Positions 48,812-60,750 of a stretch of 64,000 nucleotides of DNA are shown in pieces. The stretch comes from Pirellulales bacterium (GTDB lineage Bacteria > Planctomycetota > Planctomycetia > Pirellulales > Lacipirellulaceae), in assembly GCA_019636345.1 (NCBI GenBank), contig JAHBXQ010000005.1:124001-188000 (forward strand), written 5' to 3'. Below the pieces are notes generated by a model. It searched no databases. It was not told where the DNA came from and saw only the letters and a program-made list of their open reading frames with translations. The position numbers and the translations under genes are program-made. Position 1 is the first letter of the stretch. Every line of letters begins with the position of its first letter.

Positions 48812-50113
48812 TCAGCCGCGGCCGACGACTAACGCCGCGGCTTGTCCCTGCGGCGTTGCACTGAGTTTGAGAAACGTCTCGCCGCACGGATCGCCATGGC
48901 GGCTCGCCCGCACCGGGCAGGCCGGGTCGGCCTCGGTGAAATTGAGCGTGCCGAACAGCGACCCGGCCGGCCACGACAGCAGGCTGGCGATGAGCTCGAC
49001 CACTCCGCTGCCGGCGCCCAGGTTGCCGAAATAGCTCTTGGCCGCGGCGACCGGAGCGGTCGCGGCAGCCGTCCCCAGGAGCCGGCCGATCGCGGTCGCC
49101 TCGGCCTCGTCTCCTGCGCGATCGCCCAGGGCGTGGGCGTTCACGTGCCCCAGCGCAGCGCCGTCGATCCCCGCGTCGGCCAGCGCCTGCCGCCCTGCCG
49201 CGGCGAAGGCGTCCGCCTTGCGCGCAACCAAGTTCGCGTCGGCCACCGCGGCGCTGCCGGTGCCAAGGATCTCGCCGTAGATCGTCGCCCCGCGGGCGAG
49301 CGCGGCCTCGCGCTCTTCCAGCATCACGGCGCCGGCGCCTTCGCCGCAGACCATGCCGGTGCGGCGGCGATCGAACGGCCGGCAAGCCGTGGCGGCGTCC
49401 AACGCGGGATCAGCCAGTTCTTCGGTCTGGGTCGCATGGATCGTCTTGAACGAATGAATGCGCGTCCCCGTGGCGCCGGCCAGCATCGCATCGGCGTGGC
49501 CGCGCTCGATCGTCTGGGCCGCTTCGCGAATCGCCAACACCCCCGACGCTTCCCGCATTGTGAGCGAGTTGTTCGGTCCGCGCAGGTCGTTGAAGATCGC
49601 AATGTGGCTGGCGGGCATGTTGGGCAGGTAATTGAGCATCCACAGGGGATTCATCTCCCTGAGGCCCTCGGTCCCCCACTGCTCGTAGACCAGCCCTCCG
49701 GCAGCGACGCCGCACTTGATCATCCCCGCGAGCAAGTCGTCGGGGGGGCTGAGCATGTAGTCGCTGCCGAACACGACGCCGACTCGCTCCGGGACGCGCT
49801 CGACCAGAGCCGAGCGCGCCAGCGCCTGCTGCGCCGCGGCGACGGCCATCATCGATTCGCGGCACATCATTTTGAGCGCCTTGCGGATCGACTTCTTCAT
49901 GTCCTTGTCGAGTTCGCCGAAGTTGTCGATGTCGCCGGTGAACTCGCGGGCCTCGCCTCCGTAGGTCACAAGCCCTTCGAGCGGGGGGATTGTCGTCAGC
50001 GGGGCGACGCCGCTCGTCCCCGCTGCCAGCGCGGTCGCCAGCGCTTCGGCGGAATTGCCCAGCGGCGAGACGACCCCCAGCCCGGTGATGACGACGCGGC
50101 GACCAGCGGACAT
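48812..50113 (-). CDS. Beta-ketoacyl synthase-like protein with altered active site
   Basis: Thiolase-fold protein of 433 aa, clearly homologous to FabF by its start (RRVVITGLGVVSPLGN) and its end. Aligned on FabF, the acyl-accepting Cys163 is Glu188 (LTMREASGV for TACASAT). The first His is kept as H327 (VNAHALGD), while the second His is Asn364 (KSYFGNLGAG for KSQLGH). Loss of the nucleophile with one His retained recalls chain-length factors and KSQ decarboxylases, which carry Gln there. It should be unable to condense acyl groups alone. It lies about 2.1 kb from fabF on the same strand, with a hypothetical gene on the opposite strand and an exported protein between them. Confidence 0.88.
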   Translation of the reverse strand: MSAGRRVVITGLGVVSPLGNSAEALATALAAGTSGVAPLTTIPPLEGLVTYGGEAREFTGDIDNFGELDKDMKKSIRKALKMMCRESMMAVAAAQQALARSALVERVPERVGVVFGSDYMLSPPDDLLAGMIKCGVAAGGLVYEQWGTEGLREMNPLWMLNYLPNMPASHIAIFNDLRGPNNSLTMREASGVLAIREAAQTIERGHADAMLAGATGTRIHSFKTIHATQTEELADPALDAATACRPFDRRRTGMVCGEGAGAVMLEEREAALARGATIYGEILGTGSAAVADANLVARKADAFAAAGRQALADAGIDGAALGHVNAHALGDRAGDEAEATAIGRLLGTAAATAPVAAAKSYFGNLGAGSGVVELIASLLSWPAGSLFGTLNFTEADPACPVRASRHGDPCGETFLKLSATPQGQAAALVVGRG

Positions 50114-50302
50114 GGCAGTGTTCGTAGGGAGAGGGCAGGCGATCCAACAGCACGAACCGCCCAAGATACCCCGCCCGGGAAGGCAGGACTAGGTCGCGAC
50201 GGGGGCGGCCTCTGCGGCGTGCGAGCAAGCTTCTCGGGTGAATCGCACCTTGATTGTCCGCCGCCGCGAACCTCCGTCGCGGCCGGCGCCTCCTCCCCGG
50301 CT

Positions 50303-50698
50303 ATGGAACCGCACGTCGAAACCCGCCCGAAACGTACTCGCCGCGGCCCGGCTCTTGCCAAGCCGCTGGCGCCAGAGGACGTGCGCCTCGGGGACTTCGT
50401 GGCCGTGCTGAGTTGCACGGTGCAATGGCCGTCGTGGCTTTGGAACTGCGGCTCCGCGTGGGACGGCGCCCGCTCCGAAGTCGTCCGGACGGACTGCCTG
50501 CCTCCGAGCGAACAGCAGACGCCGCTGAAGGTTCTGGCGGCCTGCCTGCCGTTTGTGCTCGTGAAGGACCCGGTCGGCGAAGTGCAGACGCTCGACCTGC
50601 GGCAAGTCCGCATCGCGCGCCTGGACGAGCCCTATGCTCGGTGCGCGTGGAGGAAACTCAAACGGCACGCGAAGCGGTCGAAGAAACTGCGGCTGTAA
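50303..50698 (+). CDS. Conserved-looking basic protein of unknown function
   Basis: Protein of 131 aa. The body reads LAPEDVRLGDFVAVLSCTVQ, SWLWNCGSAWDG, LPPSEQQTPLKVLAACLPFV, then LDLRQVRIARLDEPYARCAW and a very basic end (KRHAKRSKKLRL). It may be a small beta-barrel like those in planctomycete hypothetical proteins. No family was recognised. ATG 50303 was taken because upstream codons belong to the antisense of the ketoacyl-synthase-like gene. No Shine-Dalgarno site. Confidence 0.65.
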   Translation: MEPHVETRPKRTRRGPALAKPLAPEDVRLGDFVAVLSCTVQWPSWLWNCGSAWDGARSEVVRTDCLPPSEQQTPLKVLAACLPFVLVKDPVGEVQTLDLRQVRIARLDEPYARCAWRKLKRHAKRSKKLRL

Positions 50699-50841
50699 AG
50701 AAACGTGACTTCGCGTCAGAGGAGCCGCTGGCGCCGCACACGGCGAGTCTCGAAGAACCGCCTTTCATGGTTCCTCGGGAGCTAGCGCCCGCCGCTCACG
50801 GAAAACTTCTCGGAGGAAACCGGACCGGTCCGCCGCGACGC

Positions 50842-52140
50842 TCAATACCGCCCGTGGAACGTCCGCTCCAGCCGCGACGCCGTGGCAGGCGTCGTCGGGG
50901 CGGACGCGGCGCCGGGGGCCGCTTGGACGCTTGTGGCCGGGCCGGTGCTTTCGACCATCAACAACGCGTCGGCGCGAGGGGCCGTCTTGGGAAGCGGCAG
51001 CATGTCGGTCACCACGTTCGGCTTGTCGGGCCCGGGCGCGGCGACCACTCCCATCGACAACAGCAGCACGCTGTCGGTCGGCCAGCGGAATCGCTCGTGC
51101 AATTCGACCATGGTCATCTGCGGCACTTCGATCTGGGCCCGTTGATTCGGCGCCACGGGCGAAGGGACCTCGAGTTGCACGGGGATCATCTTCTCGACCT
51201 GGCAAAGCCGCAGCTTGACGACCGCGTCGGTCGTGCGGGTGTCGAGCGACAACAGCGGACTGAACTCCAACGAGAATCCCTCGTCGAGCTGCCCCAGTTC
51301 GGGCTGATAGCCGGGCCAAGCGTTCTGCGTTCGGAGCACCCCCTTGGTGTACGAGCGGGGCTGCATCGTCGAGATCACAAGCGACTGGCCGTTCAGCACC
51401 ACTTGGTGCGGGATGTTGTGCTCGCGAAAATCGGTCCGGCGGCGCATTTCGCCCAAGAGGACGGCGGCATCTTCGCGAGCCATGATCCAACCCTGCACCC
51501 CCGGCGACTGGACCGAGATCGGCGTCATCAGCGGCAGCGCCCGGGCCCGCCAATTGGGATACTTCAGCGTCACGATTCGCAGCCCGAAGCCGTGACTCTC
51601 GGCCTGATTGTTCACGAACCGGTCGACCACGTCGGCGACCACGCCGTGCATCTGCGGCGTGTGGTAAACCCGCAGCGACTTACGATCGGCCGACAACAGC
51701 CCCACGGGAGTGGTGTGCCAAGTCTCGTAGCCGGTTTCGCGCAAGATCCAGTCGACGATCGCCTGCTCGGGCTGAGCTGATCCAGTCATCCGCACCGTAT
51801 ACGGAGTGATGTCGTACTCGCGCCACACTTGGCCGTGCTCGTCGGGAAGCTTCGCGGGACCGCCCGTGACCTGAGCCCGCGTCGGCTGCGGACCCGACGG
51901 GGTCGCCGTCGGCGCCAGAGGCTGAGCCGGATCGGTCCCTGGAGCAACCGCCGGTTGCGCCGCGGGCTGCTGTTGAGGAGCCGCCTGATAGGGCGTGTTC
52001 GTCGGCGCCTCGCCGTAGCGGCTGGCCGCGTCGGCGACCAACTGCCCCTCGGCCGGCGGTCGCCAACTCGACGATTGTCCCCAGACGGTCTCGGCGACGA
52101 GCGTTAGCGACGCGACGAAAACAGCGCAGCGCACGAGCAT
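50842..52140 (-). CDS. Exported protein of unknown function with Pro/Gln-rich linker
   Basis: Exported protein of 432 aa. A signal peptide (RCAVFVASLTLVAETVWG) is followed by a Pro/Gln/Ala-rich linker (residues ~30-90, with YQAAPQQQPAAQPAVAPG). The globular part contains YDITPYTVRMTGSAQPEQAI, LSADRKSLRVYHTPQMHGVV and NGQSLVISTMQPRSYTKGV, suggesting alpha/beta secretin-N-like modules; this is a weak impression. No anchor is visible. ATG 52140 has GGGAG 9-13 nt upstream. A TATACT box with a C-rich flank lies about 51 nt upstream. Confidence 0.75.
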   Translation of the reverse strand: MLVRCAVFVASLTLVAETVWGQSSSWRPPAEGQLVADAASRYGEAPTNTPYQAAPQQQPAAQPAVAPGTDPAQPLAPTATPSGPQPTRAQVTGGPAKLPDEHGQVWREYDITPYTVRMTGSAQPEQAIVDWILRETGYETWHTTPVGLLSADRKSLRVYHTPQMHGVVADVVDRFVNNQAESHGFGLRIVTLKYPNWRARALPLMTPISVQSPGVQGWIMAREDAAVLLGEMRRRTDFREHNIPHQVVLNGQSLVISTMQPRSYTKGVLRTQNAWPGYQPELGQLDEGFSLEFSPLLSLDTRTTDAVVKLRLCQVEKMIPVQLEVPSPVAPNQRAQIEVPQMTMVELHERFRWPTDSVLLLSMGVVAAPGPDKPNVVTDMLPLPKTAPRADALLMVESTGPATSVQAAPGAASAPTTPATASRLERTFHGRY

Positions 52141-52190
52141 CAACAGCACTCCCTACCCACAAGAACTCGGGGGCCCGAAATTGGGGCGGG

Positions 52191-52196
52191 AGTATA
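52191..52196 (-). promoter_or_regulatory. TATACT -10-like element before the 50842-52140 gene
   Basis: The minus strand reads TATACTCCCGCCCC about 51 nt before ATG 52140, close to the sequences upstream of the PEGA and 56945 genes. Confidence 0.5.
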
Positions 52197-52256
52197 GGAA
52201 GCCCAGGCAGCGCCGACAAGGGCGGCGGCGGGTGCTAGCGGCGACGGGGCGCCGCG

Positions 52257-53495
52257 CTACTCGATCGCTCCGGCGATGATCGACGCGTTGTGCCCGCCGA
52301 AGCCGAAACTGTTGCTCATCACCCGCGAGATCTTCCGCTGTTGCGGCTCGTTGGGGGTGTAATTGAGATCGCAGTCGGGATCGGGGGTTTGCAGATTGAT
52401 CGTCGGCGGGCAAACCTGATCGCGGATCGCCAGCACGCTCAGGACAAGCTCGACCCCGCCGCTGGCGCCCAGCAGGTGGCCAAGTTGGCTTTTCGTGCTC
52501 GACACGTTCAGTTCGTAGGCGTGGCCGTTGAAGACTCGCTTCACGGCCCCGGTTTCGGCCTTGTCCCCCAGCGGGGTGCTCGTGCCGTGGGCGTTGATGT
52601 AGTCAATCGCCGTGGGGTCGAGCCGGGCGTCGCGGAGCGCCCCGGACATGGCCCGGGCGGCGCCAGTCCCCTCGGCGTCAGGCTGGGTGATGTGCCCCGC
52701 GTCGGCGCTGGCGCCGTAGCCCAGCACCTCGGCCAGGATGTTCGCCCCGCGGGCGCGGGCGTGCTCCAGCTCCTCGAAGACCAGGATCCCGGCGCCCTCG
52801 CTCAGCACAAATCCGTCGCGGTCGGAATCGAACGGCCGGCTCGCCCGTTGGGGATCGTCGTTGCGTTCGGAGAGGGCCTTCATGTTCATGAATCCCGACA
52901 AACCGATCGGCGTCACGGCGGCCTCGGCGCCGCCGGTGACCATCACGTCGGCGTCGTCGTACTGGATCGCTTTGAAGGCGTCCCCCATGGCGTTGGTGGC
53001 GCTGGCGCAGGCGGTGGCGACGGCGTAGTTGGGACCGCGCAAACCGAAGCGGATCGAGATATGCCCGCTCGCCGCGTTGAGCATGAGCTTGGGAATCGTG
53101 AAGGCGCTGACCCGGTCGGGGCCCTTGAGGATCAGCCGCCGCTCCTGCTCTTCGATTTCGTTGAGCCCGCCGATCCCCGAGCCGACGATCGCCCCGCAGC
53201 GAAAGGGGTCTTCCTTGGAGAAATCAAGCCCCGATTGAGCGACCGCATCGATGGCGGCGACCAGCGCGAACTGCGTGAAGCGGTCGATGCGCTTCGCATC
53301 CTTGGCCTCGACGTAACCGTCGGTCGACCAATTGCGCACCTCGCCGCCGAAGTGCACCTTGTAGTCGGACGTGTCAAAGCATTCGAGCGGCCCGATGCCG
53401 CTCTCGCCCGCCAGACAACGCTTCCACAGGTCGGCGACGTTGTTGCCCAGCGGGGTGACGACGCCCGTTCCAGTAATGACGACGCGACGCTTCAT
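52257..53495 (-). CDS. fabF: Beta-ketoacyl-ACP synthase II
   Basis: Condensing enzyme elongating acyl-ACP with malonyl-ACP, 412 aa. The catalytic triad fits E. coli numbering exactly: Cys163 (TACASATNAM), His303 (NAHGTSTPLG) and His340 (KSQLGHLLGA). It is downstream of acpP by about 240 nt, with a strong hairpin-T terminator between them, so it may have its own promoter or depend on partial read-through. Confidence 0.96.
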   Translation of the reverse strand: MKRRVVITGTGVVTPLGNNVADLWKRCLAGESGIGPLECFDTSDYKVHFGGEVRNWSTDGYVEAKDAKRIDRFTQFALVAAIDAVAQSGLDFSKEDPFRCGAIVGSGIGGLNEIEEQERRLILKGPDRVSAFTIPKLMLNAASGHISIRFGLRGPNYAVATACASATNAMGDAFKAIQYDDADVMVTGGAEAAVTPIGLSGFMNMKALSERNDDPQRASRPFDSDRDGFVLSEGAGILVFEELEHARARGANILAEVLGYGASADAGHITQPDAEGTGAARAMSGALRDARLDPTAIDYINAHGTSTPLGDKAETGAVKRVFNGHAYELNVSSTKSQLGHLLGASGGVELVLSVLAIRDQVCPPTINLQTPDPDCDLNYTPNEPQQRKISRVMSNSFGFGGHNASIIAGAIE

Positions 53496-53650
53496 GATGC
53501 AATGGGGAGGCTGGATTGGCGGCCGGTGAATCGACTACGGAGACGCAAAGAGCACGGTGTCGTCGCCTAGGACGGGGGAGCGCGAAATCTCGCCGGACCT
53601 CGGTGTTCCCGCAATCTCCGCAGCGTTCGCTCGGTTCGGCAAAATGTTCC

Positions 53651-53689
53651 AAAAAAACACGGCGGCGCGAAAACTTTCGCGCCGCCGTG
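53651..53689 (-). terminator. Strong terminator on the minus strand between acpP and fabF
   Basis: On the minus strand the arms CACGGCGGCGCGAAA (53689-53675) and TTTCGCGCCGCCGTG (53672-53658) form a near-perfect stem and are followed by seven T residues. It lies about 50 nt after the acpP stop. Confidence 0.9.
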
Positions 53690-53737
53690 GGGAGATCGAG
53701 TCGTGTGGCGCGGCGTTCGCAGTGAACGCGGGGATCG

Positions 53738-53977
53738 CTACTTGCCGGAGTTCTTCTCAATGAATTCCACGGCCTGACCGACGGTCTGAATCTTCTCCGC
53801 CGCGTCGTCGGGAATGTTGATGTCGAACTCCTCTTCGAGCTCCATGACCAACTCGACAGTGTCGAGCGAGTCGGCGCCCAGGTCGTTCACGAACGAGGTG
53901 TCAGGCGTGATCTTGTCTTTGTCGACGCCAAGCTGCTCAGAAACGATGTCGGTCACGCGCTCAAGGACTGAGGCCAC
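53738..53977 (-). CDS. acpP: Acyl carrier protein
   Basis: 79-aa carrier of acyl chains. The phosphopantetheine site is [19 protein letters not shown] (Ser in DSL). It lies between fabG and fabF in the fab cluster on the minus strand and ends at a strong terminator. GGAGG lies 7-11 nt before the ATG. Confidence 0.97.
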
Positions 53978-54265
53978 GATATGGTCCTCCTTGGAACCCC
54001 AGGATGTGTCAGCGGCCGCAGGCCGGCAGGAATCAGCGGACTTCGCCCGCAGCGGCGTCGAAGAGCCCCAAGGGACCGCGACGGATGCGGAAGCTCATTA
54101 AAATAGAGCGGTTGTGCGAAGGAGGTCAAGTTGTAGCGTCTCGCCGGGGGGCTGTCCAGGTCGCCCCGTCGGCGCCAGGAGCCGTGTTTGGGCGCTGTGG
54201 TCGCGGCTCTCGGAGACGCGATTCCGGTCTCGGAGAGACCGGGCTGCAGCAGCGGTCAGGCCGTT

Positions 54266-55042
54266 TCAGGCGGTCAAGCCCCCGTCGACGACGAGGACTT
54301 GACCGGTCATGTAGCTGGCCGAGTCGCTCGCCAGGTAGAGAACCGCGTCGGCAATCTCGCTCGCTTGGCCGAGCCGCTGGGCGGGGATCCGCAGCTTCAC
54401 CTGCTCGTCGAGGGCCGGGCCGAGAGCGTCGGTCATTTCCGTGGCGATGAACCCGGGGCAGATCGCGTTGACGGTGATCTTGCGCTTTCGGCTGGCCATC
54501 TCCCGGGCCACGGTTTGCGTGAATCCGATGATTCCGGCTTTCGAGGCGGAGTAGTTCGCCTGCCCAGGATTGCCCATGATTCCCGAGACGCTCGAAATGT
54601 TGATGATCCGCCCGGTTTTCTGCCGCATCATCACCTGCGTGGCGGCCCGGGTCAGCAGGAACACCGACCGCAGATTCGTGGCGATCACTTGGTCCCAGTC
54701 CTCGTCCGTCATCCGCGGGATGAGCCCGTCGCGGGTGATCCCCGCGTTGTTGACGACGATGTCGACCCGCTCGTGAGCGGCGACGACCGCTTCAAAGACC
54801 TGTTCGACGGCCGCGCTGTCGGCGACATCGCACTCGAAGGCGCCCGCTTCGCCGCCGGCAGCCTTGATCTGGGCGACGACCTCGGCAAGCTTCGCCGCAT
54901 TGCGGGCGACGCAAGCCACTTTGGCGCCGCTGGCGCCAAGGGCAAGCGCGATCTCCCGCCCAATGCCCCGCGACGCGCCCGTGACCAGCGCCACCTGTCC
55001 GGAGAGGTCCGCCTTGATCCGCCGTTCGCCTGCTTCGCTCAT
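54266..55042 (-). CDS. fabG: 3-oxoacyl-ACP reductase
   Basis: NADPH-dependent reductase of the second step of fatty-acid elongation, 258 aa. It has VTGASRGIGREIA (cofactor loop), NNAGITRDGL, the catalytic Ser-Tyr-Lys in NISSVSGIMGNPGQANYSASKAG and the C-terminal YMTGQVLVVDGGL. ATG 55042 starts shortly before the fold; the frame to 55141 extends into the repeat region. It lies downstream of fabD. Confidence 0.96.
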   Translation of the reverse strand: MSEAGERRIKADLSGQVALVTGASRGIGREIALALGASGAKVACVARNAAKLAEVVAQIKAAGGEAGAFECDVADSAAVEQVFEAVVAAHERVDIVVNNAGITRDGLIPRMTDEDWDQVIATNLRSVFLLTRAATQVMMRQKTGRIINISSVSGIMGNPGQANYSASKAGIIGFTQTVAREMASRKRKITVNAICPGFIATEMTDALGPALDEQVKLRIPAQRLGQASEIADAVLYLASDSASYMTGQVLVVDGGLTA

Positions 55043-55077
55043 GCCGTGGGTCTTTCTTGGATCATTGGTTTGAACGA

Positions 55078-55253
55078 GGCAACCGCGAAGGGACGAAAGA
55101 CGCGAAGCTGGTTTCGTCGTCACGACGAGGCGGCAGCTCACGAGGAACGCTCATGGACGCTCGTCTTCGCTCACTCTGGATGAGCGAAGATCTGCGTTCC
55201 CCCACTGCCGTATCGTGCTTCGTATCCTTCTCCTTCGTGCCTTCGTGGTTGCC
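55078..55253. repeat. Inverted repeat between fabD and fabG
   Basis: The left arm (55078-55107, GGCAACCGCGAAGGGACGAA...) and right arm (55227-55253, reading GGCAACCACGAAGGCACGAA on the minus strand) are imperfect inverted copies. Between them lie TCGTCGT-C-ACGACGA and CGCTCA/TGAGCG hairpins. 'Cacgaaggacacgaagg'-like repeats of this kind occur in many environmental genomes. The unit interrupts the fab cluster without a gene inside. Confidence 0.65.
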
Positions 55254-55273
55254 TGGGATGGTAAACCGTCGGT

Positions 55274-56182
55274 TCACGCCGAGACGTTTTCGCACGGGAA
55301 CTTGCGGTCGATGCGTTTGAGCAGCCCCTTGAGCACGCGGCCCGGGCCGATTTCGTAGCACTCGGTCGCCTTGAAGTCGTCGATGAGCCACCGCATCGAG
55401 TCCTCCCACCGCACGGGGTTGGTGAGCTGCTCCTCGAGCAGGCGGCGGATCTCCGTCGGGTCGTCGTGGGGGCGGGCGTCGACGTTCGAGACGACGGGAA
55501 TTCGCGGCTTGGAAATCGCGACGTCCGCCAGCGCCTTGGCGAGTCGTTCCCGGGCCGGGGACATCAGCGACGTGTGAAATGCCCCCGCGACCGCCAGCGG
55601 GATCACCTTCATCGCCCCGGCCGCTTCGGCCGCGGCGGCGATCCGGGCGCACGCGTCATCGTCCCCCGAGACGACGATGTTGCCCGGGCAGAGCATGTTG
55701 GCGACCTGCAGCACTTGGCCCTCGCGACATTGGTCGCAAAGTTCCTGGACCTGCGGCAGCTCGAACCCCAGCACGCTCACCATGCCGCTGGGCGCCAGAT
55801 CGGACGCGGCCTGCATCGCGCTGCCGCGCTGCTGGACCAGTCGCAGGCCCGACTCGAAATCGAGCGCCCCGGCGAACGCCAGCGCGGTGTATTCGCCCAG
55901 CGAGAGCCCCGCGGCGATCGCGGCGCCGTCCACGAGGGCCGGGTTCTCGCCCCGCAGCTTTTCCAGCGCCGCAAGGCTGCAGACATAGAGCGCCGGCTGG
56001 CTGTGATCGGTCGCGTCGAGCGACTCGGCTGGGCCGTTGGTGCAGAGTTCCAGGAGATCGTAGCCCAGGATCTCGCCGGCGCGATCGAACAGCGACTTGG
56101 CCGCCGGCAACGAGGCGGCAAGCTCAGCGCCCATCCCAACCGACTGGGCGCCCTGGCCGGGAAAAAGAAAGGCGGTGGGCAT
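55274..56182 (-). CDS. fabD: Malonyl-CoA:ACP transacylase
   Basis: Loads malonyl groups onto ACP, 302 aa. It shows FLFPGQGAQSVGMG, the nucleophile elbow GLSLGEYTAL (Ser), catalytic His in VAGAFHTSLM, and QPALYVCSLAALE. ATG 56182 opens at MPTAFLFPGQG; the frame to 56242 is not conserved. It is separated from fabG by the inverted repeat (55078-55253) and preceded by rpmF, a common order in bacteria (rpmF-fab). Confidence 0.95.
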   Translation of the reverse strand: MPTAFLFPGQGAQSVGMGAELAASLPAAKSLFDRAGEILGYDLLELCTNGPAESLDATDHSQPALYVCSLAALEKLRGENPALVDGAAIAAGLSLGEYTALAFAGALDFESGLRLVQQRGSAMQAASDLAPSGMVSVLGFELPQVQELCDQCREGQVLQVANMLCPGNIVVSGDDDACARIAAAAEAAGAMKVIPLAVAGAFHTSLMSPARERLAKALADVAISKPRIPVVSNVDARPHDDPTEIRRLLEEQLTNPVRWEDSMRWLIDDFKATECYEIGPGRVLKGLLKRIDRKFPCENVSA

Positions 56183-56347
56183 GCGAAGGCCGCAGGGGAC
56201 GAGGCCGCGGGAAATGAGACAGGGATCGACGGAGCAAACCACGAGGCCGGAAGCGTCTTGAAATGGGAAGGGTCGGCCGCGTTCACGAGATGACGCGATC
56301 GCCTTGGCCCCTCGACTCCTAACGCCAAAGCCCCCCTCTCGCCCAGC

Positions 56348-56527
56348 CTACTCCTCTGTCTCGACCATCGTCCGACCCATGTAGTGGCCGCAGTTGCTGC
56401 AAGCGACGTGGGACGGCGTGGCCGTGCCGCACTTGGGGCACGATTGGAGCTGTTTGCGCTTCAGAGCGTCGTGCGAACGACGCATGCCAGTGCGGGAATT
56501 GGAATGCTTGCGCTTGGGAACGGCCAT
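56348..56527 (-). CDS. rpmF: Ribosomal protein L32 (zinc-finger form)
   Basis: 59 aa. Starts MAVPKRKHSNSRTGMRRSHD, and has the zinc finger CPKCG...CSNCG (two CxxC pairs) in the second half. ATG 56527 was chosen. The gene lies just upstream of the fab cluster, as in many bacteria. Confidence 0.97.
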   Translation of the reverse strand: MAVPKRKHSNSRTGMRRSHDALKRKQLQSCPKCGTATPSHVACSNCGHYMGRTMVETEE

Positions 56528-56944
56528 GGCCGGGGCCCTCGGATGCGGCCGGGGATCGCCCAGCCAAGACGGATCAGAGTCAAACGAATCGAACAAGGTA
56601 CCCCGAGCAGCCCGCCATCGTCAACCGGGGGGAATTCGGCGCACGGCCGCTGCAGGTTCAAGCTGCGTCATTCCAAGTGGTCGATCGGCGGCTCGCCGGG
56701 AGCCGGAAACGGCGAGGTTTCCGGAGACCGACGGTCTTCCCGCGGCTGGCGGGCCGGCGGCTAGGCAGGCGGGACCTCGGCCCGACGGGAGGAGCCGCAT
56801 CGGCGCGGGTCCGCCGCGACGGGGCTTACGTTATACTCCCCGGCGCCGAATCGCGTCCTGCCGGGCAATTTGCCCACGGCATTGGGAGACTCCCCTCCCG
56901 CGTTCTGAACTCCGACCTCCCCCTCTCCCACCTCTCCCCTTCCC
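56528..56944. other. Divergent intergenic region between rpmF and the membrane-protein operon
   Basis: 417 bp with no gene. It must contain the rpmF promoter (minus) and that of the operon starting at 56945 (plus); a TATACT box (56832-56837) is a candidate for the latter. Confidence 0.45.
56832..56837 (+). promoter_or_regulatory. TATACT -10-like element before the 56945 operon
   Basis: TTACGTTATACTCCCCGGCG lies 107 nt before ATG 56945. A -35 was not identified. Confidence 0.45.
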
Positions 56945-57607
56945 ATGACTGACCGCCTCTGGTTCATCGCCCAGCGCCGCCTGCAGTTTGAAGGCGAGGC
57001 CCGGGCCAACGTGCTGCGACTGGTCGCGATCGGAGTATTCTATCTGATCCACCTCGGGAGCTATCTGGCCAGCGAGGGGAAGCTGCCGCGCTGGGACCTC
57101 CTGCAACTGGCGGAATCGGGCGAGATTGATCGCCGGTTCCACTTGCTGGTGACGCTGCTGGCCGGCTCCTGGGCGGCGGCGGCAGCGGCGGTCCACTTGC
57201 TGCTCACGCAGCGCGTCTTTCCCCGCTGGATTTCGCAGGCGACGACCATCGTCGACCTGCTGATGCTCACCAGCCTGCTGGCGATCTCTCGCGGACCGCA
57301 AAGCCCGCTGGTCGTCGGCTACTTTCTGGTGATCGCGCTGGCGGCCCTGCGATTCAGCCTTCCGCTGGTCTGGACCGCGGCCGGCGGAGCGATCGCGGGG
57401 TACGTCTGCCTGCTGGGGGTCGCCAAGTGGCCCCTGGCGTTCGGCCGGCCGGCCGATCTCGACATGCATGTGCCGCGGTACGAGCAACTGATCATGCTCG
57501 CGGCCTTGGCGGTCGCCGGGGCCGTGACCGGCCAGGTGGTGCGCCGCGTGCGGTCGCTCGTGAGGCGCGTCGACGTGCGGCTCGGCAACGCGGAGGGCGC
57601 CTCGTGA
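56945..57607 (+). CDS. Polytopic membrane protein, first gene of a lipid-enzyme-like operon
   Basis: 220 aa with about six hydrophobic helices (one is LVTLLAGSWAAAAAAVHLLL, another TIVDLLMLTSLLAI). The C-terminal end is basic (VVRRVRSLVRRVDVRLG), likely cytoplasmic. The N-terminus (RLWFIAQRRLQFEGEARANV) resembles the sensor regions of MASE-like membrane modules, but no signalling output domain is attached. The stop overlaps the start of the zinc-ribbon gene by 4 nt (GTGA), a sign of coupled translation. No Shine-Dalgarno site is visible. Function unknown. Confidence 0.8.
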   Translation: MTDRLWFIAQRRLQFEGEARANVLRLVAIGVFYLIHLGSYLASEGKLPRWDLLQLAESGEIDRRFHLLVTLLAGSWAAAAAAVHLLLTQRVFPRWISQATTIVDLLMLTSLLAISRGPQSPLVVGYFLVIALAALRFSLPLVWTAAGGAIAGYVCLLGVAKWPLAFGRPADLDMHVPRYEQLIMLAALAVAGAVTGQVVRRVRSLVRRVDVRLGNAEGAS

Positions 57608-58215
57608 GCGACGACCTGTCGAGCCAATTCATCCGCTGCCCCCAGTGCGGGGCGGAGTGCGATCGCTCGCGCAGCAAGTGCTGGGTGTGCGAGTCGGAAT
57701 TGCGAGGCGCCACTGCAGGGGATGCCGCCGCCACGATTCCGGACGGCGTCGCCGCCATCGCCAATGATGCAGCAGGGACGAATCTCTCGTTCTCCACCGC
57801 GACGCTGCTGTTGATCATGACGATCGGTGCGTTGGTGCTGGGAGTCGCGGCGGAGGCGCCGGGGCTGGCCGTGTTCATCGCCATCGTGCTCGCGCCGATT
57901 TGCTTCCGGACGATCGGTCTCGTGCGGCGGCGGGAGCGCGCCGGCGAGCGGGTCTCGACCCTCGAAAAGGCGTCGCTGATCGGCGCCTCGTTCGTCACCG
58001 CCGTCACGTTCCTGATCGTCGTTTGCTGTGCGCTGTTTTGCAGCTTCTGCGGCGTGTGTCTCATCGTCGTCTCGGCGGGAGGTCCTCCGCGCGATCGCGG
58101 CTTCTCGATGGTCGGCGTGGCCGTGGCTGCGCTCGGCGTCGCTTGTTGCTTCCTGACCGTGAAGATGTACCGCTGGATGAAGCAGAAACGCAAAGCGGGC
58201 GAGCTGCCGCTCTGA
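57604..58215 (+). CDS. Zinc-ribbon membrane protein
   Basis: 203 aa. The N-terminus carries a zinc ribbon, CPQCGAECDRSRSKCWVC, with two CxxC pairs, then a linker and three or four hydrophobic helices (TATLLLIMTIGALVLG, AVFIAIVLAPICF, FVTAVTFLIVVCCALFCSFC), and a basic end. The GTG start at 57604 overlaps the previous stop by four bases. The role is unknown; the cytosolic ribbon could dock a partner. It stands in front of the radical-SAM gene by 31 nt. Confidence 0.85.
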   Translation: MSDDLSSQFIRCPQCGAECDRSRSKCWVCESELRGATAGDAAATIPDGVAAIANDAAGTNLSFSTATLLLIMTIGALVLGVAAEAPGLAVFIAIVLAPICFRTIGLVRRRERAGERVSTLEKASLIGASFVTAVTFLIVVCCALFCSFCGVCLIVVSAGGPPRDRGFSMVGVAVAALGVACCFLTVKMYRWMKQKRKAGELPL

Positions 58216-58246
58216 CCCCGGGCCATGCTGCGCCGCAGGAGATTCG

Positions 58247-59881
58247 ATGACCGCAGTTTACCGTGACCATGCGTTCTTGGGCGTCACGCAGTCGTTGTGC
58301 CCCGAGTGCTTCGCGCTTGTCCCCGCGAAGATCGTCGAACGCGGCGGGCGGATCTACTTTCAAAAACGGTGCCGCGAGCACGGGCCCCGCGAGGACTTCG
58401 TCTGCAGCGACGCCCGGTGGTGGGACAAGCTCGAGTACAGCCTGCCGGGCAAAGTTCCCGTGGCGTTCGGGGTCGACGACTCCCGCGGCCCGCTGCGCGG
58501 CTGTCCCTACGACTGCGGGCTGTGCACCGAGCACGAACAGCATACCTGCATCGGCATCGTCGAGATCAACTCGGCCTGCAATCTCGAGTGCCCGATGTGC
58601 TTCGCATCAAGCGGCCCCGGCGGGTCGCATTTGTCGTTCGACGATTGCCGGCGGGCGATCGACCGACTCGTCGAGGTCGAGGGCCGACCCGAAATCCTGC
58701 AGCTCTCGGGAGGCGAGCCGACGATCCACCCTCGGTTTCTCGACGTGTGGCGGTACGCCGTCGAACGGCCGATCGACATCGTTATGATCAACACCAACGG
58801 CGTGCGGCTGGCGAACGACCGAGCGCTGGTCGACGCCCTGGCCGAACGCCGGACGCGGACCGAGATCTACCTGCAGTTCGACGGGTTCGCCGACGACGGC
58901 TGCCGCACACTGCGGGGGGAGTCGTTGGTCGAGACGAAGTTGCGGGCCGTCGAGCGGCTCGGCGAGGCGGGGTTGCGGACGATCCTCGTCTGCACGGTCC
59001 AGAGCGGCGTCAACGACGGCGAATTGGGGGCGATCGTCCGGTATGCCGTCGAGCGACCCTGGATTACGGGTGTGAGCCTTCAGCCGGCGTGCTACGTGGG
59101 GCGGCGCGTGCTGCCCGCGGAGATGACCCGGCGGTCGACCTTTCCCGAAGCGATTCGCCAAGTGTGCGAGCAAACCGCCGGCGACGGCGAGAACGCTTGG
59201 CGAGAGAGCGACTTTACGCCGCTGCCGTGCGCTCACCCCAACGCCCACACGCTGGCGTACGCCTATCGGCGCAAGGGGCGACTCTTGCCGCTGGCGCGGT
59301 TCGTGAACCTCGACGAGCACCTCGATTTGCTGTCGGGACGAATCACGTTCGACCGCCCGCGGGCCAAAGCCCTCATTGGCGAGTACCTGTCGCGGCTCGC
59401 CTGCGGCGGCGGCGACTGCGGCTGCGCTCCCCCGGCGGATTTTGCGGCGCTCAGTTCGAGCGCCGGGCCGCCTAGCCCCGTCCCTGCGAATGAGCCGCGG
59501 GCGCTAGCCCCGGGCGCGCTGCAGGTCTTGGATTCCCTCGAGGGTCGCCCGAGGCCAGCGCCTTCGGCTCAAGTTGCGGGACAACGCTTCGACGAAGACG
59601 ATCTCGCGGCGGAGTTCTTCGCCCGCGCCGTCGCCGAGGAACTCGCCCCCGAAGACGTGTTCCGCATCACGACGACCAGCTTCATGGACGCCTATAACTT
59701 CGACGTCCGCCAGGCGATGAAGGAATGCGTCCACTTCGTGTTGCCTACGGGCCACGTCGTCCCCTTCTCGGCCTACAACCTCCTATACCGCACGGGCCGC
59801 GCACCGTTGCCGGAATTGCGCACCGCAGAGGCTGCGGAGGTCGCAGCGCTGGCGGGGGCGGCCCCAGTCATGCAGGCATGA
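58247..59881 (+). CDS. Radical SAM protein of the Tes-like (tetraether lipid synthase, COG1964) group
   Basis: Radical SAM enzyme, 544 aa. The N-terminal Cys-rich segment holds CPEC (C18, C21), KRCREHG (C42) and GCPYDCGLC (C86, C90, C93). The radical SAM site NSACNLECPMCFA (C111, C115, C118) and SGGEPTIHPRF follow. The C-terminus has ITTTSFMDAYNFDVRQAMK and HVVPFSAYNLLYR. This N- and C-terminal arrangement resembles the archaeal tetraether lipid synthase (Tes, MJ0619-like), which joins lipid tails by C-C coupling; this is my recollection of the family. A Gly/Cys-rich insert (ACGGGDCGCAPP) lies near residue 385. AGGAG precedes the ATG. The stop overlaps the next start (ATGA). Confidence 0.82.
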   Translation: MTAVYRDHAFLGVTQSLCPECFALVPAKIVERGGRIYFQKRCREHGPREDFVCSDARWWDKLEYSLPGKVPVAFGVDDSRGPLRGCPYDCGLCTEHEQHTCIGIVEINSACNLECPMCFASSGPGGSHLSFDDCRRAIDRLVEVEGRPEILQLSGGEPTIHPRFLDVWRYAVERPIDIVMINTNGVRLANDRALVDALAERRTRTEIYLQFDGFADDGCRTLRGESLVETKLRAVERLGEAGLRTILVCTVQSGVNDGELGAIVRYAVERPWITGVSLQPACYVGRRVLPAEMTRRSTFPEAIRQVCEQTAGDGENAWRESDFTPLPCAHPNAHTLAYAYRRKGRLLPLARFVNLDEHLDLLSGRITFDRPRAKALIGEYLSRLACGGGDCGCAPPADFAALSSSAGPPSPVPANEPRALAPGALQVLDSLEGRPRPAPSAQVAGQRFDEDDLAAEFFARAVAEELAPEDVFRITTTSFMDAYNFDVRQAMKECVHFVLPTGHVVPFSAYNLLYRTGRAPLPELRTAEAAEVAALAGAAPVMQA

Positions 59882-60750
59882 ACAATTGCGAGCGAGTGGG
59901 CAAGTTGTTCGAGATCAACCAAGCCATCGGGACGATTGTCGATTCTGCGATTGCCGTGAATCTCGCATATACCCTGGTGATGCTTGCCGCGGTCGGGACG
60001 GGATTCGTCCTGTCTCGGCGGTCGCAGGCGCGATTGGATGTGTCGGCGAGCCAGCGTCTGGGGGTCGCGGTCGGCGCCTTTTGCGGGGCGATGCTCGGGG
60101 CGAAGTTGCCGTTCGTGCTGTCTGACTGGAACGCCTTCCTCTCTGGCGCCGCGTGGTTCGCCGACGGCAAGACGATTCTCTGCGGGCTCGCGGGGGGATA
60201 CCTCGGCGTCGAGATCGCCAAGTGGGCCCTCGAGGTGCGCGTGAAGACCGGCGATTCGTTCGCCGTCCCCGTGGCTGCGGCCATCGGCGTCGGACGTCTC
60301 GGGTGCTTCATCGGCGGCTGCTGCTACGGCACGCCGACCGGGCTGCCCTGGGGCGTGCGGTTCCCGACCGCCGGCGACGAGTTGCCGCGGCACCCGACCC
60401 AACTCTACGAGGCGGCGTTCCACCTTGCCGCGGCGGTCGTGCTATGGCAGCTTCAGCAGGAGGGCCGTTTCCGCGGGCAGTTGGTGAAGCTCTACTTCTT
60501 GGCGTACTTCGCGTATCGGTTTGGAAGCGAATTCATTCGCCCCGAGGCACGTCAGTGGGGCGGCCTGACCGGTTACCAGTGGGCCTGCTTGGCCCTGGCG
60601 GCGCTGTTCGCGTGGCTGTGGCGCCGTGACGCCCGCAGCCTATTCTCTCAGAGAATAGACCCGCCGACCGTAACCGCTACTCGAACAACGAGCGCTGCCC
60701 GGACTCGTCCGGCGGCGTCGCGCCGAGATGTTCGTAACCCTTCGCCGTGA
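59878..60750 (+). CDS. Lgt-family (prolipoprotein diacylglyceryl transferase-like) membrane protein
   Basis: 290 aa with about seven hydrophobic helices. The Lgt signature is visible: GRLGCFIGGCCYG (Arg140 corresponds to the essential Arg of GRxGN), RHPTQLYEAA and YRFGSEFIRPEA with Arg. The upstream histidine of the HGG motif in canonical Lgt is absent (ILCGLAGGYLG), so it is probably a divergent, non-housekeeping family member. The start overlaps the radical-SAM stop by four bases, so the two are co-translated. The last ~35 residues (after LFSQRID) are a basic Ser/Arg/Thr-rich tail that overlaps ruvB on the opposite strand by 74 bp. Confidence 0.85.
   Translation: MNNCERVGKLFEINQAIGTIVDSAIAVNLAYTLVMLAAVGTGFVLSRRSQARLDVSASQRLGVAVGAFCGAMLGAKLPFVLSDWNAFLSGAAWFADGKTILCGLAGGYLGVEIAKWALEVRVKTGDSFAVPVAAAIGVGRLGCFIGGCCYGTPTGLPWGVRFPTAGDELPRHPTQLYEAAFHLAAAVVLWQLQQEGRFRGQLVKLYFLAYFAYRFGSEFIRPEARQWGGLTGYQWACLALAALFAWLWRRDARSLFSQRIDPPTVTATRTTSAARTRPAASRRDVRNPSP
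60640..60658. repeat. Perfect 19-bp palindrome near the end of the Lgt-like gene
   Basis: CTATTCTCT-C-AGAGAATAG, in-frame in the codons for SLFSQR, just where the family domain ends and the extension overlapping ruvB begins. Confidence 0.6.

Follow-up and report, generated by a model that had tools for sequence, protein, structure and literature searches.

In a 64,000-nucleotide stretch of the genome of a Pirellulales bacterium (hereafter, the window), four consecutive open reading frames on the plus strand, which we will term A, B, C, and D, include a radical S-adenosylmethionine (SAM) protein (C) and a membrane protein with the predicted fold of the diacylglyceryl transferase Lgt (D). The features of C and D exceed chance, and the pair is conserved across phyla. 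Bacterial homologues of the tetraether synthase Tes are already known. Our favored explanation, to which we give slightly better than even chances, is that C and D are two parts of a radical SAM system that modifies membrane lipids: D would bind a phospholipid and C would attack its tail, with an outcome other than the Tes reaction. A link of the pair to lipids is likely, while a Tes-like bridging of lipid tails by C is doubtful. As two lipid-handling enzyme superfamilies are tied as a pair in six bacterial phyla, several of them with cultivated strains, the presumed modification is directly testable. The core of the pair is:

58247..59881, plus strand: gene C, 544 amino acids, radical SAM protein with the predicted fold of GDGT-MAS (Tes)
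59878..60750, plus strand: gene D, 290 amino acids (264 if it starts at the GTG at 59956), membrane protein, paralogue with the predicted Lgt fold

The earlier note on this DNA had proposed a functional link between C and D, and the link is stronger than was claimed. Among 59 genomes related to the window's genome (G000, 5.18 Mb, 95.9% complete), 19 encode C (E ≤ 1e-80); the same 19 encode a D-type Lgt (at least 179.9 bits) and none of the other 40 does, with every other Lgt match at 78 bits or less. The probability of such agreement by chance is 7e-16, a figure that disregards kinship and is therefore too small. Four genera contain both carriers and non-carriers, and the presence of C and D agrees in all four, which implies that the two genes were repeatedly gained or lost together. 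Nor is the co-occurrence mere physical linkage, because in G003, G016, and G050 the two genes are on different contigs or about 470 kb apart. Of the 56 loci of the window's kind (Pirellulales-type), 42 have D downstream of C, 40 of these within 300 nt. In 17 genomes no D was found beside C (14 Pirellulales-type genomes without a nearby D plus G179, G551, and G1016; the set leaves out L084, L144, L120, L245, L263/L264, and the unpaired group), and 13 of them carry a D-type Lgt (above 240 bits) elsewhere, in G254 just 3.7 kb away.

Bacteroidota, Cyanobacteriota, Pseudomonadota, Bacillota, Actinomycetota, and other Planctomycetota also have the pair, mostly with the gene order reversed. The type with D upstream includes Bacteroidota, Cyanobacteriota, Alphaproteobacteria, Paenibacillaceae, and other Planctomycetota. 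D is near C in 27 of the 28 members of the D-upstream clade as defined by the tree of C, or in 33 of 34 with six members (L147, L153, L155, L156, L227, and L228) that lie outside the tree and were placed by gene order and scores, which makes the larger fraction partly circular. D is upstream in all 33 except L050; the distance is at most 300 nt in 28 of the 34 and 0.8 to 3.9 kb in four. Our scan of named genomes covered the best 80 of 565 relatives, a set that leans towards the query. When 392 Planctomycetota genomes were drawn and at most three candidates were scored in each, at least 56 had a C-like protein (E 1e-40). In genomes drawn evenly from other phyla (each draw including its seed genome), C was present in 18 of 198 Bacteroidota, 9 of 299 Pseudomonadota, and 8 of 146 Cyanobacteriota, and D was near C in 16/18, 9/9, and 6/9 loci, respectively (three of these nearby matches are weak, at 65, 92, and 95 bits, one at a contig end). 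Some names of metagenome-assembled genomes (MAGs) are doubtful: L128, called Limnohabitans, groups with Bacteroidota.

Other relatives of C also have neighbors of interest. In records from Mycobacterium branderi (a plasmid) and Nonomuraea, an Lgt-family gene lies upstream of a more distantly related radical SAM gene, with two small genes in between in M. branderi. At L265 (5977-8345) and L269 (5980-8143), from M. vanbaalenii and Halorarius plasmids, a methyltransferase gene comes directly after the radical SAM gene and there is no match to D; genes for CcdA and a disulfide oxidoreductase are nearby in M. vanbaalenii. The two loci belong to a different system, possibly a TrsS-like one. In L091 and L092 (Chloroflexota), the radical SAM gene lies near an Lgt-like gene of a different kind, which keeps the Asn of N146 (E. 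coli Lgt numbering) and was possibly recruited independently.

C contains the Pfam domains Zn_ribbon_HMPTM (PF23545) and Radical_SAM. Its best-scoring NCBIfam model is that of the radical SAM (seleno)protein TrsS (NF045646), yet the score of 294.8 bits is far under the curated cut-off of 490, and the Tes model (NF045702) gives 255.2 bits against a cut-off of 450. Because both scores are under the cut-offs, C belongs to neither TrsS nor Tes as curated. The Tes model has matches over its cut-off in 57 of 61 genomes of one archaeal phylum; no TrsS match over the cut-off was found in 244 Planctomycetota genomes. The closest solved relative of C is GDGT-MAS of Methanocaldococcus jannaschii (MJ0619; E 6e-68). 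An AlphaFold model of C built on 78 sequences (mean predicted local distance difference test score, pLDDT, of 87) aligns with GDGT-MAS (7tom) over 440 residues (Z 49.2, root-mean-square deviation 3.5), and the next other protein is at Z 20.9; GDGT-MAS aside, all of the 50 rows listed by VIA-align belong to other radical SAM proteins. The predicted overall fold of C is that of Tes/GDGT-MAS. This agrees with the Tes-like character that the earlier note had read from C111/C115/C118 and from the FMDxYNFD/PFSAYN tail, which is present as FMDAYNFD (residues 479-486) and PFSAYN (506-511).

Membership of Tes itself, which the earlier note had suggested checking with the Tes model, is another matter. 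Besides the score of 255 bits against 450, the tree separates C from the archaeal enzymes. We collapsed 199 C loci to 144 at 95% identity and used 73 of these in a first tree (our trees were built by a quick method, with support from the Shimodaira-Hasegawa-like approximate likelihood ratio test, SH-aLRT, only). Archaeal Tes, together with L222, is split from the rest by a branch of 1.71 with support of 100, which places C outside the archaeal Tes clade, on a long branch. A group of 52 sequences (support 99) contains 46 of the 47 Lgt-associated enzymes in the tree. Lgt is absent from another set, made up of sequences from Acidobacteriota, Chloroflexota, Thaumarchaeota, and others, except for L092, whose Lgt-like neighbor is of another kind. 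Two thaumarchaeal loci, L115 and L119, were rejected as references for Tes: a Tes above the cut-off lies elsewhere in the genome of L115 (L216), and L115 resembles a second, lower-scoring copy.

The metal sites of C also set it apart. MJ0619 has a rubredoxin site (C9, C12, C33, and H36), an N-terminal cluster (C73, C77, C80, and a His), a radical SAM cluster, and a C-terminal cluster with the labile ligand Met439 (PMC9433317). The latter cluster of Tes, [Fe4S4]C, carries the first lipid chain during coupling; the substrate is bound to the cluster sulfur, an S-C intermediate forms on one cluster, the enzyme was crystallised with phospholipids in its tunnel, and the M439A and Y459F/L variants stay active (PMC9433317). 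The corresponding features of C are:

58274..58408, plus strand: N-terminal rubredoxin-like domain (PF23545), ligand columns C18, C21, C42, and H45 kept
58502..58534, plus strand: N-terminal auxiliary cluster, columns C86, C90, C93, and H96 kept
58577..58600, plus strand: radical SAM cluster CX3CX2C, C111/C115/C118
59228..59245, plus strand: C328, a bacterial-type Cys, and A333, a Cys column of archaeal Tes that is lost
59402..59419, plus strand: C386 and C391, a bacterial-type extra Cys pair
59675..59770, plus strand: T477, E493, and S508, that is, T/E/S at the Met439 position and at two of the three [Fe4S4]C Cys ligands; C494 kept

C is thus like Tes/GDGT-MAS (MJ0619; NF045702; PDB 7tol, 7tom) in its fold, its rubredoxin-like domain, its N-auxiliary columns, its radical SAM site, and its FMDxYNF...PFxxYN C-terminal segment. 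It is unlike Tes/GDGT-MAS in forming a separate long-branch clade, in scoring below the cut-off, in having A/T/E/S at the [Fe4S4]C site, in the additional C101, C328, C386, C391, and C494, and in having D as a partner. Beyond the first three sites, 25 archaeal Tes sequences (from one phylum) have exactly three invariant Cys, at window columns 333, 493, and 508, along with Met at 477; as the only other invariant Cys, these three were taken as the [Fe4S4]C ligands. At all four ligand columns the window's protein has something else (A333, E493, S508, and T477), where 25/25 archaeal sequences have Cys or Met. All three Cys are kept in 22/22 unpaired bacterial, 33/56 Pirellulales-type, and 0/34 D-upstream sequences; among the other Pirellulales-type proteins, three keep one of them and 20, including the window's, keep none. 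The C493 and C508 columns are replaced in 34/34 D-upstream sequences. Three changes on the tree account for the loss of the [Fe4S4]C columns. (Of the 144 sequences, 137 are in the four column groups; three, L082, L084, and L144, were too short to include, and L091, L110, L120, and L222 were handled separately.) These missing ligands complete the case against counting C as a Tes member, and a bridging of lipids like that of Tes, which the earlier note had inferred, does not follow.

Either in exchange for these Cys or on top of them, the bacterial proteins have Cys of their own. C101, C328, and C494 are Cys in 112/112 sequences of the three bacterial groups, versus 0, 0, and 2 of 25 archaeal ones. 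Cys occurs at 386 and at 391 in 51/56 Pirellulales-type sequences each, and the other groups have pairs elsewhere in the same region. Exceptions to this bacterial Cys set, such as L222 and L245, fall outside the column groups. It is possible, going by the alignment, that C328, C386, C391, and C494 form a bacterial-type four-Cys metal site, with the Tes-type site lost in this branch. We set aside C328/C494 as a simple Cys pair that donates hydrogen: given the further Cys (C386/C391, the CC in 'LLCCLP', or a CxxC), a four-Cys site is at least as likely. A small set made up of L110, L120, L243, and L244 has T477, E493, and S508 as in the window's protein (a CRTECS pattern), apparently from a separate loss of the cluster columns. 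Three distant Lgt-associated radical SAM proteins, L246, L267, and L268, of which two come from Actinomycetota records and one from the Bacteroidota draw, keep the C-terminal Cys set and are without the Cys of the N-auxiliary cluster, the reverse of the D-upstream type.

D passes the Pfam family LGT (PF01790) at 114.6 bits against a gathering score of 24.9 and stays below the Lgt equivalog TIGR00544 (52.5 bits, cut-off 118.9). A model of D (pLDDT 91) aligns with E. coli Lgt bound to phosphatidylglycerol (PG; 5azb) over 230 residues (Z 14.7, root-mean-square deviation 4.2), with the next row at 6.7. The modelled fold of D is therefore that of Lgt, in line with the earlier note, which had pointed to the motifs GRxGCF and RHPTQLYE and to an absent upstream His; the motifs are present, and the column of E. 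coli His103 is Leu. The relevant features of D are:

60169..60222, plus strand: K98-T99 ... E112 ... K115, a signature that separates paired D from other Lgts
60292..60330, plus strand: GRLGCFIGGCCYG, in which R140 (E. coli R143) is retained and C143 stands at the N146 position; GRLGCF is residues 139-144
60388..60411, plus strand: RHPTQLYE (residues 171-178), an Lgt motif

Six residues are essential in E. coli Lgt, namely Y26, H103, R143, N146, G154, and R239; R143 and R239 position the phosphate of PG (PMC13251419, PMC4728403). With the E. coli numbers put on the columns by reading motifs, D keeps Y26, R143, G154, R239, Y235, and E243, and has Leu at H103 and Cys at N146. It is thus like Lgt (PF01790; 5azb) in fold, in the R143, R239, G154, Y235, and E243 columns, and in RHPxQLYE. 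It is unlike Lgt in that its genome has a second Lgt, in the residues at H103 and N146, in its K/R98-E112-K115 signature, and in its tie to a radical SAM gene. The three signature residues occur jointly in 73 of 75 paired D proteins and in none of 14 other Lgts of such genomes (L175 left out), and the signature was not found in the Lgt-like neighbors in L091, L092, and L110. The H103 column is Leu, Val, Met, Ile, or Ala in 71/75 paired D proteins; the N146 column is Cys in 75/75 of them and in 6/14 of the other Lgts. In the model, E112-K115 are part of the helix (model residues 74-92) that matches transmembrane helix 3 (TM3), and K98-T99 come before it. As H103 is located at the N terminus of TM3, close to the periplasm (PMC4728403), E112-K115 should be nearer to the cytoplasm than H103 if the model is right.

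We rejected D as the housekeeping Lgt, as a higher-scoring Lgt (L031) is found on a different contig of G000. Of 13 genomes that we checked via their loci, all 11 bacterial ones have at least one further Lgt besides the radical-SAM-associated one, and the two archaeal ones have none. L031 (G000:C3) has Tyr at the His103 column and 'GRIGCLLNGCCYGG'. The non-paired planctomycete Lgts L031, L166, L167, L169, and L170 have GRIGCxxNGCCYGG-like motifs, with Cys in place of E. coli N146 and E151, and Tyr at the His103 column; judging from these sequences, this type is probably the main Lgt of these genomes. Because the other Lgt of G000 and of four further planctomycete genomes shares both the GCCYG stretch, rich in Cys, and the absence of His103, we discarded these two features as evidence of a new activity. 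The missing His that the earlier note had singled out in D is indeed missing, but it is not special to D. In the tree of D (72 of 92 sequences, with the Pirellulales type thinned), the D proteins of both gene orders plus L110 are on one side of a branch with support of 97; the set without L110 has support of 42. The tree suggests that a single origin for D of both gene orders is likely, short of proof.

We turn to how the two proteins might work. D would bind PG in the membrane, holding its phosphate via the R143/R239 columns and without the usual residue at His103, and would present it to C. C would be a peripheral enzyme that takes a lipid tail into its tunnel. Cleavage of SAM at C111/C115/C118 would lead to the removal of a hydrogen from an unactivated carbon of the tail. 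The outcome is probably not the Tes reaction, in which two saturated tails are joined via a sulfur-bound intermediate, because the residues that ligate [Fe4S4]C are gone from this branch; it would instead be another radical change of the tail. We infer all of this, including the lipid substrate, PG as the lipid, complex formation, and the altered reaction, from folds by prediction, pairing, co-occurrence, and the gain and loss of motifs.

Several points weigh against this explanation. The active site of Lgt faces the periplasm and radical SAM enzymes are cytoplasmic, so a direct hand-over needs explanation. Of the 17 genomes mentioned above, four (G179, G1016, G1159, and G1163, some of which may be incomplete) have C and no D-type Lgt was found in them. 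The 33 of 56 Pirellulales-type C proteins that keep the three [Fe4S4]C Cys have D nearby in 23 cases, so not every paired enzyme would have the altered chemistry. A statistical link between the loss of the [Fe4S4]C columns and the pairing was tried and rejected, as there are only 2-3 independent contrasts. The ligands of C were assigned by alignment rather than from a solved structure, and against archaeal sequences from one phylum. Finally, the lipid role of every member of the system is itself inferred.

One alternative, along the lines of the earlier note, is that C acts as a bacterial Tes and couples two fatty-acyl tails to give membrane-spanning or macrocyclic lipids, with a replacement cluster at C328/C386/C391/C494 and with D presenting or re-attaching the lipid. 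The whole-length GDGT-MAS fold, the conserved radical SAM, N-auxiliary, and rubredoxin sites, and the four-Cys set of bacterial type would all fit, and the three Tes Cys persist in those 33 Pirellulales-type proteins. Also, Met439 and Tyr459 of MJ0619 are dispensable (PMC9433317), and synthesis of branched glycerol dialkyl glycerol tetraethers (brGDGTs) by bacterial homologues has been proposed as a hypothesis (Zeng 2022, PMC8941075; Black Sea study, PMC11868695). Even so, we consider this rather unlikely, as all four ligand columns are replaced in 20/56 Pirellulales-type sequences, the window's included, and C493 and C508 in 34/34 D-upstream ones; C is under the Tes cut-off and outside the archaeal clade. 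PF09989, a domain of the ether-forming PlsA/Ger proteins, was not found in G000. The carriers include a Nostocaceae strain, a group that is not known for membrane-spanning lipids. D could instead be a working diacylglyceryl transferase with altered specificity: C would make a special PG, from which D would move the diacylglyceryl group onto particular (lipo)proteins or some other acceptor. The conserved R143, R239, G154, Y235, and E243 columns and RHPTQLYE are consistent with this; Tyr, Trp, or Phe at H103 and Cys at N146 occur in some Lgts (PMC13251419), and the other Lgt of G000 has Tyr and Cys. Yet paired D almost always has Leu, Val, Met, Ile, or Ala at H103, we saw no recurrent acceptor gene beside the pair in the 19 loci whose gene calls were read, and MSMEG_5408, which like D of the D-upstream type has Y26H and N146C, is presumed to have low Lgt activity (PMC13251419), so we think a transferase role improbable.

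Another possibility is that C acts on a non-lipid, such as a pterin (the first proposal for MJ0619) or another small molecule, and that D is a membrane anchor. The name of PF23545 comes from a pterin annotation (to which HMPTM presumably refers), TrsS is the best NCBIfam model for C, and related radical SAM genes adjoin methyltransferase genes in M. vanbaalenii and Halorarius. This seems very unlikely because the exact co-occurrence with an Lgt-fold protein points to lipids; moreover, the pterin role of MJ0619 was not corroborated and its tunnel is hydrophobic (PMC9433317). Returning to C and D as a lipid-modifying system, one specific scheme, which we offer as a long shot, is that the pair is a widespread lipid-tail enzyme in which a one-SAM reaction has taken the place of the coupling by Tes, which uses two SAM and a chain-carrying cluster. 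Lipid tails in bacteria, in contrast to those in archaea, are often unsaturated. A tail radical formed in C could add to an unsaturated neighboring tail and yield macrocyclic, ring-bearing, or membrane-spanning lipids without [Fe4S4]C, while R143/R239 of D would hold PG headgroups and E112-K115 would meet C at the cytoplasmic side.

Some known systems bear comparison with the pair. Radical SAM lipid coupling in bacteria is known from Mss, which we set beside C by description only, and an Lgt-like partner is not mentioned in the cited passages on Mss (PMC13274423, PMC11868695). Bacterial Tes homologues are known as well, and branched tetraether synthesis by them has been proposed as a hypothesis; again, the cited passages do not mention an Lgt-like partner (PMC8941075, PMC11868695, PMC10087280). 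The second Lgt of M. smegmatis, MSMEG_5408, may be a D-type protein, a likeness that we draw from its description only (PMC13251419). In the open-licence full-text literature, neighboring radical SAM and lgt genes came up in one passing mention only, and the absence of others is weak evidence: in single-cell genomes of Pseudarthrobacter, a 3.5-kb region with one radical SAM gene and one lgt gene, mentioned along with a nitrate reductase cluster, occurs in three of four genomes, and the fourth lacks the whole block (PMC12010503). The likeness is by gene names alone; if these genes are relatives of C and D, the region would be an independent case of joint loss.

These results also matter for how such genes are counted and annotated. 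Bacterial "Tes homologues" have been counted as possible evidence for the production of membrane-spanning lipids in paleoclimate work (Zeng 2022, PMC8941075; PMC11868695), and the Black Sea study reported them in 110 of 684 Planctomycetota MAGs (PMC11868695). Such counts may overstate the producers because part of the Planctomycetota relatives and all 34 D-upstream proteins are without the cluster ligands that are thought to be needed for Tes chemistry. Also, the annotation "prolipoprotein diacylglyceryl transferase" has probably been given to some genes whose products are not lipoprotein enzymes.

The other two genes of the operon are:

56945..57607, plus strand: gene A, 220 amino acids, polytopic membrane protein with about six hydrophobic segments
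57604..58215, plus strand: gene B, 203 amino acids, GTG start, N-terminal zinc ribbon (CxxC pairs by eye) and about three hydrophobic segments

The four genes and their junctions are as the earlier note had described them: a GTGA overlap of A and B (57604-57607), a 31-nt gap between B and C (58216-58246), and an ATGA overlap of C and D (59878-59881). The last overlap is present in the sequence, but it may not be the true start of D: because homology begins near residue 27, at the GTG at 59956 ('VNLAYTLVM'; several relatives begin 'MNxAYTLIM'), this GTG is an alternative start. A scan for promoters found none. Searches of Pfam and NCBIfam gave no match for A and no informative family for B. The earlier note had also suggested looking for the same gene order in other Pirellulales. 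All four genes are found at 19 of the 56 Pirellulales-type loci (with A and B on the far side in L076), compared with the 42 in which C has D nearby, and the missing conservation of gene order that the earlier note had named as a refutation did not arise.

As general partners of the pair, which is how the earlier note had cast the zinc-ribbon and polytopic proteins, A and B do not hold up. Among the 34 D-upstream loci, A is present in one and B in none, and neither was seen in the 22 unpaired loci, with flanks that are often short (less than 2.5 kb of sequence upstream of C in 20/34 D-upstream and 7/22 unpaired loci, which limits these absences). As they are nearly absent from these two groups, A and B look like accessory, local additions.

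Upstream of the operon, on the minus strand and divergent from it, are members of the rpmF, fabD, and fabG families and two beta-ketoacyl synthase family genes (48812-56596); 3' of it, the minus strand again carries ruvB and a gene for an alpha/beta hydrolase. The interval between rpmF and ruvB is a site of the operon that is common only to close relatives. We considered the adjacent fatty-acid genes as functional partners and rejected them: fabD is nearby in 11 of 48 loci longer than 8 kb (six genomes), and because all 11 are from the window's own family, this looks like a shared position. Several relatives have at least two copies of gene B, and in L045 a single stretch upstream of C contains up to eight B-like matches (zinc ribbon plus membrane segments).

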